From contig JAFVZS010000038.1 in assembly GCA_017508015.1 (NCBI GenBank), positions 1 to 35,441 of the forward strand: 35,441 bases of DNA, in the 5' to 3' direction. Positions 6,001-20,776 of the stretch are shown piece after piece. The notes under the pieces are model-generated. The model saw nothing but the letters and a program-made list of their open reading frames with translations, was not told the DNA's origin and searched no databases. This DNA comes from Lentisphaeria bacterium. GTDB taxonomy: Bacteria; Verrucomicrobiota; Lentisphaeria; Victivallales; Victivallaceae. The translations under genes were made by a program, and so were the position numbers. Numbering within the stretch: position 1 is the first letter of the stretch; every line of letters starts with the position of its first letter.

Positions 6001-6152
6001 TTTACGGTCATCGCCGCAACGCTTTCGGACCATTTTATATGAATGAGGCCACTCCTTTCTGGAATGGCCCGCTGCAATTCAAAACCCGGCAGCAAAATGC
6101 TAAACAGCTTGTGCCGGCCGGATTGTTGGAAAGTGTGAAAATAATTTACTGA
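3078..6152 (+). CDS. GH106-like glycoside hydrolase (alpha-L-rhamnosidase type)
   Basis: This 1024-residue protein has the length and N-terminal signature of glycoside hydrolases of the GH106 type: SAPFWAWN, GAGGFFMHARVGL and FYDEDRWPSGSAGG within the first 110 residues, followed by IFTDEPN and GHMHWEDTL. The acidic residues of these motifs are candidate catalytic or metal-binding residues. The C-terminal third looks like beta-sandwich sugar-binding domains, as in GH2-like enzymes. No signal peptide is seen, so it should act in the cytoplasm on imported oligosaccharides. A ribosome site (AAGGAA) precedes the ATG. It converges on the Gfo/Idh/MocA gene with a 7-base overlap of ends. Rhamnosidase activity is inferred; other deoxy- or uronic-sugar linkages are possible. 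Confidence 0.75.
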   Translation: MHEKLLENLAALPSEYRSAPFWAWNSTLKEEELIRQIHILHEMGAGGFFMHARVGLNTAFLGDEWFDCVRKCISEAEKLGMTAHFYDEDRWPSGSAGGKVTQHKKYRIQALAMSSSLLPDDPDTEYLRSFAVEYSAGVPAVWRPCGMNDPGDKLHFYCCTAKPESWYNHGTYVNTLDPEAVAEFIRIAYEPYAEKFQDKFGNSAGSIFTDEPNYRAALFSENAKTVRKSESRVEPPKILPWTAELPEKFQEKYGYDILSSLPELFYEKNGEEFSGLRCNYFNLLTGLFVEAYMKQIGSWCEKHHLPLTGHMHWEDTLTYQRHQVGSAMRSYEYMQQPGIDQLTEHLQIFDTAKQCVSVAHQLGKKRRLTECYGCTGWDFPFAGYKALGEWQYALGINFRCPHLAWYSAAGDAKRDYPASIFFQSPWYQKYPVVEEHFARLGAALDAGQEVRNILVIHPIESTWGYKSDIRLTPAEAWAENQSLIDVRNTLLAGNLDFDYGDEELMSRHASVAGELLQIGSAGYLAVVIPPLRTIRRSTLTLLEKFARNGGSVICTGALPEYVDAVRDTDAQNIFKLFIHVPLTELSAKLADFREVSISAGGVEVDPVLPLLRRGEGFQSLFVCNVGHELGKFHQEHEPGVLEREAEFPEVQISLRSSGRGEIVELDLDSGKFYAVESVYRDGRRCFTTSFSQLGSRFFIESAEQWPLASRPPIPRGELFMTLPDEWAYHCAGANTLVLDEAEFAIDHGKWQEKEFFIFIDNAIRDHLAIPRRGGAMAQPYTRMEKQSGKTANLSLRYSFTVRDIPHDLQLATETPELFNFELNGKKISFEDCGFWVDPAIRRSVLPVELLRAGENILTVNTVYSGEHPGIESCFLLGDFGISQRDCLIRKPEKLLTGDYGAQGLKYYADNLTYINHFELDEVPEMPLFISFGKWRGALLGVSVNGGGEQLLPWPPYTLEITPYLQCGKNTVSITVYGHRRNAFGPFYMNEATPFWNGPLQFKTRQQNAKQLVPAGLLESVKIIY

Positions 6153-7195
6153 AACTGGCGCACATCGCACCATTTGCCTGATTTGCAGGCGGCGTAAACC
6201 GCATGAACAAATACCGCTGAGCCGGAGGCTTCTGCCAGAGTGACTTCCGGTGCCCGGTGTTCTTCGATCGCCCGGATGAAGTCGGTGAGCTGGGCCGTAT
6301 GTCCCGTGCCGTAATAGACTTTTCCGTGGATCTTTTCCTGATCGTCAATATCTGTCAGCGCACTGCGTACTGCGGTAACCGCTGAATCGTCGTTGCCGTC
6401 GAGATAGACGAGTTTTTCATCGATGAATTCCACTTGCATTTCTGTGCCGCAGATGGTCAGGGCACTGCGCCATTTGGCTGATGCGGAATTGGTGGAGTTT
6501 ACGGTGATAAACAGACCATTGGCAAATTCCGCGACAAAAGATACGGTATCTTCCACTTCGATAACCTGCTGATGGGTCAGATTGGCTGAAATGGCCGCCA
6601 CACGCCGGACATTGCCGAAAAGAAAACGCAGCTGATCGAGAAAATGGATCGCCTGATTGATCAAAACGCCGCCGCCTTCACCGGAAACAGTGCCGCGCCA
6701 TGCTGCCTGCCGGTAGTAATCATCGGTACGTAAACAGGCAAAATTCAAATTCACCGTCAGCAATTTGCCGAATTTGTTTTGAGCGATCAGCTCCTTGAGA
6801 ATGATATTGTTCCGGTTGAAACGATGCTGAAAGATACCGGAAACCGCCACTTCCGGGTGTTGGGCCGCAGCGGCGAGCATCATATCCAGATCCTCCGGTG
6901 TGCGGCCGGGAACCTTTTCACAGATGACATGTTTGCCCGCATTGATGGCGGCACAGACGATTTCCGCATGGCTGGCATGGTCAGTGCACACACTTACGGC
7001 ATCAAGTTCCGGATCTTTGAACATTTCCCGGTAATCGGTGAAAATTTTTGCTCCCGGAATATTCTCCGCCAGTTTGACTGCTTTTTCTGAAAGCAGATCA
7101 CAGAAATGTGTGACTTCTGCTCCGGGGATTTGCCGATAACCGGCCAGATGGGTCGGCGCAATGATCCCGCAACCGACAATACCGCATTTTACCAT
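6146..7195 (-). CDS. Gfo/Idh/MocA family NAD(P)-dependent oxidoreductase
   Basis: The 349-residue product begins with the Rossmann motif GIVGCGIIAPTHLAG and contains the family's EKxP-type motif (CEKVPGRTPED, near residue 95), whose Lys binds cofactor and substrate. The C-terminal alpha/beta domain is complete. The start chosen is ATG 7195; a longer frame would need a TTG at 7231 within the promoter. The ribosome site is weak (GAGAGAG). These enzymes oxidise or reduce sugar, inositol or uronate derivatives. The convergent glycosidase suggests carbohydrate catabolism, but the substrate cannot be read from sequence. It has its own promoter just upstream although the symporter gene precedes it on the same strand. 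Confidence 0.88.
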   Translation of the reverse strand: MVKCGIVGCGIIAPTHLAGYRQIPGAEVTHFCDLLSEKAVKLAENIPGAKIFTDYREMFKDPELDAVSVCTDHASHAEIVCAAINAGKHVICEKVPGRTPEDLDMMLAAAAQHPEVAVSGIFQHRFNRNNIILKELIAQNKFGKLLTVNLNFACLRTDDYYRQAAWRGTVSGEGGGVLINQAIHFLDQLRFLFGNVRRVAAISANLTHQQVIEVEDTVSFVAEFANGLFITVNSTNSASAKWRSALTICGTEMQVEFIDEKLVYLDGNDDSAVTAVRSALTDIDDQEKIHGKVYYGTGHTAQLTDFIRAIEEHRAPEVTLAEASGSAVFVHAVYAACKSGKWCDVRQFQ

Positions 7196-20379: not shown

Positions 20380-20436
20380 AGAAAAGCCGCACTTTGCAAA
20401 GAATCCTTTTCGGGTATACTTTGCAAAATGCGGCTT
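20380..20436 (-). terminator. Long hairpin terminator of the 58-residue gene
   Basis: AAGCCGCA (20384-20391) pairs with TGCGGCTT (20429-20436), and the inner TTTGCAAA at 20393-20400 pairs with TTTGCAAA at 20420-20427 across one mismatch. On the minus strand the stem is followed by TTTTCTTT. It lies 17 bases beyond the stop codon of the small gene. Confidence 0.75.
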
Positions 20437-20453
20437 GGTATTAAAGCGGTAAA

Positions 20454-20630
20454 TTACTTATTCGCTTTATCCCAGACTGCTTTGCTGACAAAGGCGGTCA
20501 GGTTGCGGCCATCGGCGGTTTTACCTTTGAAAGCATAGCTGGTGTGGCTGGCGGTTTTGAAAGTCACGCACTCAAGCACTTCAGTTTCAACAGCGGATTT
20601 GGTCTTGACGTCGTAAAATTTGTGTTTCAT
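20454..20630 (-). CDS. Small basic 58-residue protein of unknown function
   Basis: Translation on the minus strand gives a complete 58-residue frame that starts MKHKFYDVKTK, contains AFKGKTADGRNLTAFVSKA and ends WDKANK. It is Lys-rich (11 Lys), has one Cys, no signal peptide and no membrane segment. An almost perfect ribosome site (AGGAGG, 8 bases before ATG), a sigma-70-type promoter with a phased A-tract upstream region, and a long terminator all frame the gene precisely. This makes it a real gene that is probably highly expressed. I do not recognise the family. The pattern of short beta-strand-like segments ending in a conserved-looking FVSKAxW motif would fit a small soluble, perhaps nucleic-acid- or ribosome-associated protein; that is a guess. 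Confidence 0.75.
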   Translation of the reverse strand: MKHKFYDVKTKSAVETEVLECVTFKTASHTSYAFKGKTADGRNLTAFVSKAVWDKANK

Positions 20631-20689
20631 TGTTTTTTCCTCCTGACATTTTTGGAATTTAACACGTCATTTTTCAGTGACTGTTAATA

Positions 20690-20718
20690 AGTATACTCAA
20701 AAAACGGTAAATAATCAA
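20690..20718 (-). promoter_or_regulatory. Promoter of the 58-residue gene
   Basis: Minus strand TTGATT (20718-20713), 17 bases, TATACT (20695-20690). The spacer coincides with one arm (20700-20711) of a 12-base inverted repeat whose other arm is at 20765-20776. Confidence 0.6.
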
Positions 20719-20776
20719 GAGCAAATTTGAGAAATTTCAAAAAATTTTCAAATTTTTTTGCATTTTTACCGTTTTT
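20719..20776. promoter_or_regulatory. Phased A/T tracts (probable curved UP-like element) within an inverted repeat
   Basis: A/T tracts at 20723-20728, 20732-20737, 20739-20748, 20750-20759 and 20763-20767 have centres spaced about 9 to 11 bases apart, as in intrinsically curved DNA. They lie immediately upstream of the -35 of the minus-strand promoter. The 12-mer arms AAAAACGGTAAA (20700-20711) and TTTACCGTTTTT (20765-20776) bracket the tracts. The rest of the gap to 20900 holds no gene that I can see. Confidence 0.5.

Follow-up and report, generated by a model that had tools for sequence, protein, structure and literature searches.

This study asked whether a 58-residue open reading frame in a Lentisphaeria genome is a genuine gene and, if so, what its product does. 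The window, which is the whole 35,441-nucleotide stretch of DNA that was analyzed, carries the frame at 20454–20630 on the minus strand, and its translation was MKHKFYDVKTKSAVETEVLECVTFKTASHTSYAFKGKTADGRNLTAFVSKAVWDKANK. A gene of this length could easily be overlooked by annotation. The features of the locus were as follows:

20380–20436, minus strand: intrinsic terminator, 18-bp stem with a T-rich tail
20454–20630, minus strand: 58-residue coding sequence of the FYDVK family (Cys-less, zinc-ribbon-like, predicted β-β-β-β-α)
20639–20644, minus strand: Shine-Dalgarno site AGGAGG, 8 nt before the ATG
20659–20687, minus strand: 5'-UTR hairpin (TTAACAGTCA...TGACGTGTTAA), directly 3' of the predicted −10 element
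20690–20695, minus strand: −10 element TATACT
20713–20718, minus strand: −35 element TTGATT, with a 17-nt spacer to the −10 element
20723–20759, minus strand: A/T-tract block, UP-element-like or curved DNA, with a tract spacing of 8–11 nt

The distribution of the gene was investigated in related genomes. It was found in 53 of 60 genomes in a first search of relatives. The preliminary description had regarded the lack of any homologue in related genomes, together with the lack of a transcript or peptide, as fatal to its proposal; on the side of homologues, a profile search found the gene in 85 of 98 Lentisphaeria genomes (counted from the listing) and in none of 190 other genomes sampled from the phylum. 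By these counts, the gene is near-universal in the class Lentisphaeria and usually single-copy. Two cultured Lentisphaerae strains, WC36 and zth2, for which strand-specific RNA-seq is public (PMC11361711), also carried it (L063, 6001–6174; L070, around 6001–6168). The class was identified as Lentisphaeria from named records, in which a few matches were labeled Calditrichaeota, Armatimonadota, Gracilibacteria, or Verrucomicrobia, metagenome-bin labels that may be wrong; among these, a FYDVK gene (L126, 6001–6174) lay on a 1.3-Mb contig labeled Calditrichaeota, far outside Lentisphaeria. Nine family matches were scattered over the contigs of one Lentisphaeria genome (G315), including L095, L097, L120, and L124. 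A second branch, FYNVK, was present in further families, both of the order and of the class, and on viral contigs of 25–203 kb (L186–L191). The one FYNVK viral contig tested (L189) matched nothing among the collected phage records.

Strong purifying selection was found against the four closest relatives, with dN/dS of 0.02–0.05. The invariant residues of the family were F5, Y6, D7, V8, T38, D40, R42, L44, T45, and V48. The protein had a net charge of +5 and a pI of 9.6, in agreement with the basic character first noted for it, and the whole family was basic (mean net charge +7.0, pI 9.75). A chance open reading frame, which the short length would favor, was refuted by homologues in 42 genera, the dN/dS of 0.02–0.05 in close pairs, and promoter, terminator, and Shine-Dalgarno signals conserved among homologues. 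The sequence comparisons supported a genuine gene under selection that is autonomously transcribed.

The genes next to the window gene encode a protein that looks from its sequence like an ABC-transporter permease and a CapA-like protein (PF09587). Judged from these neighboring genes, the window copy was not inside a prophage. Gene neighbors varied between genera, and close relatives were syntenic around lpxB-, pepF-, and capA-like genes, names that were read from sequence with only the CapA-like one tested. By-eye inspection of some 35 loci showed no conserved operon partner.

The expression signals agreed largely with the preliminary description. The perfect AGGAGG was confirmed at 20644–20639, a type of site present at only 1 of the 23 long open reading frames of the window, and the 17-spaced promoter was confirmed as TTGATT-17-TATACT. 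The A-tract block above the −35 element was also present, but its phasing was approximate at a spacing of 8–11 nt. A/T tracts covered 71% of the 45 nt upstream of the −35 element, compared with a mean of 11% for intergenic 45-mers, only 0.2% of which matched this coverage. A strong terminator lay where it had been placed, but instead of a two-part hairpin the stem (20436–20384) was one continuous 18-bp stem of −30.4 kcal/mol (z −6.3). Among 60 non-redundant homologues, 28 had a promoter scoring at least 10/12 and 43 had a terminator, where shuffles gave 1.7 and 3.0; a Shine-Dalgarno core of at least 5 bases preceded 47. On these signals, the gene usually forms a unit by itself, with a promoter and a terminator of its own, apart from neighboring operons.

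The 5'-UTR hairpin was weak alone (z −1.3), and the Rfam search gave sub-threshold miRNA noise only. An inverted repeat, GTCA-N8-TGAC, was located at 20666–20681 of the window, just after the −10 element, and was nearly invariant in several close relatives. Outside the close relatives, hairpins of different sequence replaced it at that place. The repeat is a candidate operator or mRNA 5' stabilizer.

The codon score was calculated with related genome G021 as reference, because the window's own genome is incomplete and lacked the ribosomal reference. The score of the 58-residue gene was 0.03, compared with −0.12 for background windows and 0.11 for ribosomal-protein windows. The claim of very high expression was therefore borne out in part. 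The strong promoter, UP-like tract, Shine-Dalgarno site, and terminator suggested it, but codon usage above background yet short of that of ribosomal proteins means that these signals do not prove it.

Direct searches of the window protein gave no Pfam, NCBIfam, PHROG, or PDB sequence match, and direct searches of phage records and plasmids gave no match. Weak matches in 180–190-residue frames of relatives were rubrerythrin-like (named from sequence); they look like chance and were rejected. The earlier statement that the protein has no recognizable family held for direct searches, but not for profile comparison, which linked the protein to the DUF5679 zinc ribbon (PF18930). Forty-six family members were compared by hhalign with eight DUF5679 sequences from one phage record, viral contigs, and two Armatimonadota-labeled MAGs; the phage sequence (in L192) was confirmed as DUF5679 by Pfam. 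The unmasked comparison gave P 0.0073 with 45 columns aligned colinearly; 1 of 400 column shuffles scored as well, and none did so over at least 40 columns. Cys was then masked to avoid the penalty for lost zinc ligands, which gave E 2.7e-5 and a score of 26.7, colinear over the whole domain. This score exceeded all 300 column shuffles (mean 8.8, sd 2.2, maximum 20.8), and the reversed control did not align.

By inspection of the alignment, the DUF5679 Cys sites fell on residue 10 and on the invariant D7, T38, and D40 of the 58-residue protein. The FYNVK branch had no Cys at the aligned zinc-ligand positions either. At the first turn both proteins have F/Y-x-V-K and, past the second, G-x-x-L/M; their predicted strands come in the same order, and the lost CxxC sites correspond to two turns in the 58-residue protein. 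Unlike DUF5679, the 58-residue protein lacks zinc-binding Cys and has an extra C-terminal helix. The two zinc-binding CxxC knuckles that characterize DUF5679 were lacking in the family, no scanned member reached the Pfam cut-off of PF18930, and DUF5679 was absent from the first 21 genomes searched and from the controls. The profile comparison showed that the family is homologous to the zinc ribbon DUF5679 but has each of the four Cys replaced, a relationship that is strong only with Cys masked and is drawn from eight DUF5679 sequences.

The structure prediction proposed in the preliminary description was carried out. The AlphaFold2 model of the 58-residue protein (pLDDT 91.6) had strands at 2–7, 12–25, 30–37, and 43–48 and a helix at 50–57, a predicted SH3-like β-β-β-β-α fold. 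The best match among solved structures was Cren7 (Z 6.2, 53 residues, 2.0 Å), at a Z below 8, which is weak evidence alone and may reflect merely a common small-barrel arrangement. The top nine rows of the structure search were all Cren7, with Z from 6.2 to 5.4, followed by a Tudor domain (Z 4.8). Foldseek against PDB found nothing at E ≤ 0.001. The strands of a modeled DUF5679 member followed this order, but there was no helix; its top matches were Cren7 (Z 4.6) and the NrdR zinc ribbon (Z 4.4).

Cren7/Sul7 has been proposed to be a former zinc ribbon whose Zn ligands were lost, with the sheet as the DNA-binding face (PMC5906684). The predicted fold pattern agrees with this published origin. 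The 58-residue protein resembles the crenarchaeal chromatin proteins Cren7/Sul7d in size, in basic charge, and in its predicted SH3-like sheet, and Cren7 is likewise thought to be a zinc ribbon without its zinc (PMC5906684). It differs from them in being bacterial and phage-borne and in having a C-terminal helix, and DNA binding, which in Cren7/Sul7d takes place in the minor groove with hydrophobic residues of the sheet intercalating, is conjectured for it. Comparison by hhalign with single Cren7 and Sul7d sequences gave P 0.37 and 0.28, that is, no detectable sequence homology. The 58-residue protein was therefore not classed as a member of this group and is at most a parallel case.

Copies of the gene were also found in phages. 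On the rumen viral contigs L127–L140, the gene ran opposite to the structural genes. The contigs that were examined closely had it between a Neck1/tail-completion gene and a 138-residue gene, with major tail and tape-measure genes nearby. In the occupied contigs, about 350 nt at this position held the gene together with TTGACA-17-TATATT, a Shine-Dalgarno site, and a terminator. In L211, L212, L213, and L215, whose neck1 proteins were about 91–92% identical to the query, the site was empty, at about 20 nt. More distant relatives (L221–L226) were also without the gene at the neck1/138-residue site. By this arrangement, the phage copy is a moron, with its own promoter and terminator, inserted between structural genes and empty in sister phages. 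Unlike phage morons, the window copy and most others are chromosomal and nearly universal in the class. The proteins of phage copies L128 and L130 were 86–98% identical to those of Lentisphaeria/Victivallales contigs L105 and L119, which indicates that close versions are common to host and phage lineages. One gene copy was beside a tyrosine integrase (L057). In another accessory slot, three of the contigs L221–L226 (L221, 3336–4261; also L222 and L226), either read or sharing the sequence, carried a HepT-like ribonuclease/nucleotidyltransferase pair on the opposite strand between structural genes.

The best explanation as a whole was that the protein is a zinc-ribbon-derived, zinc-free SH3-like nucleic-acid binder, encoded by an autonomous unit and common to hosts and phages; we give this an even chance of being right. 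A DUF5679-type zinc ribbon would have lost all four zinc-binding Cys and with them, we infer, zinc binding. The Cys-less domain would fold as a hydrophobically stabilized SH3-like sheet with a C-terminal helix, and the sheet would bind nucleic acid, as in Cren7/Sul7d and type-2 zinc ribbons. The protein is encoded by a one-gene unit with UP-like tracts, a sigma70-type promoter, a strong Shine-Dalgarno site, and a terminator. Lentisphaeria keep the gene in the chromosome, and some phages carry a moron copy, which suggests that it has some effect of value to a lysogen.

Since the family is basic and small and has the sheet through which related folds contact nucleic acid, the 58-residue protein most likely binds nucleic acid. 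Among DNA, RNA, or a nucleic-acid enzyme, DNA is a first guess for the target. The basic charge and the modeled fold, with Cren7 as best match, make the nucleoid- or ribosome-associated role proposed earlier plausible. D7 and D40 are acidic and invariant, so the target may be specific, and these residues are more like a ligand site than generic DNA coating. Further points against the best explanation are the lack of a recurrent operon partner that would hint at a process and the occurrence of HU in almost every one of these genomes. HU (PF00216) was found in 57 of 58 Lentisphaeria genomes, including that of the window, and replacement of HU was rejected for this reason. A bolder version, in which Lentisphaeria independently made a zinc ribbon into a Cren7/Sul7d-like architectural DNA binder and the phage copies act on host or phage chromatin, is tentative and probably goes too far.

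Other functions were considered. The moron with its TTGACA-17-TATATT promoter and terminator between the 138-residue gene and neck1, empty in sister phages, could instead be a phage or lysogeny accessory that binds a particular protein in superinfection exclusion, host takeover, or defense, with the chromosomal copies as domesticated morons. The HepT-like/nucleotidyltransferase pair in another slot of related phages, the copy beside the integrase, the non-syntenic positions, and the multiple copies in some genomes fit this proposal. It has to account for a gene that nearly every genome of the class carries, usually as a single copy, that is under strong purifying selection, and that lies outside a prophage in the window; since phages also take up genes from their hosts, transfer may have run from host to phage. 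We regard the accessory role as possible but unlikely.

A role in translation, in which the protein would be small and SH3/KOW-like and would associate with the ribosome or with a translation factor, was considered rather unlikely. Such a role would suit a small basic protein with strong translation and transcription signals, and weaker fold matches linked the 58-residue protein to eIF5A (Z 4.0) and its DUF5679 relative to ribosomal L44e (Z about 3.5). However, these matches scored below Cren7, codon usage was below that of ribosomal proteins, the gene was never in a ribosomal-protein cluster among the loci read, and one class plus phages is an unusual range for a core translation factor. More improbable still was regulation of transcription through contact with RNA polymerase or with a specific operator, for which the GTCA-N8-TGAC repeat of the gene itself is a candidate. 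The near invariance of the repeat in several close relatives and the frequency of zinc-ribbon relatives in the transcription apparatus (PMC5906684) favor it, but the repeat sequence was lost outside these relatives in exchange for other hairpins, and no conserved target genes were seen.

The gene represents a class-wide bacterial protein family that matched no family library searched. If true, the change from a zinc ribbon to a zinc-free SH3-like domain would be a bacterial case of that proposed for archaeal chromatin proteins. Zinc-binding relatives are available for comparison with the zinc-free family, and the occupied and empty phage sites make a host–phage function testable.

Fold matches in BFVD were obtained for uncharacterized proteins of Marseillevirus LCMAC201, LCMAC202, and LCMAC102 (E 3e-4 to 2e-3), with 27–36% identity over about 55–63 columns and a TM-score on the query of 0.76–0.81. 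A0A481YYB0 (36% identity, E 3e-4) and its relatives seem to hold the same domain, which, unlike in the 58-residue protein, sits within longer giant-virus proteins.
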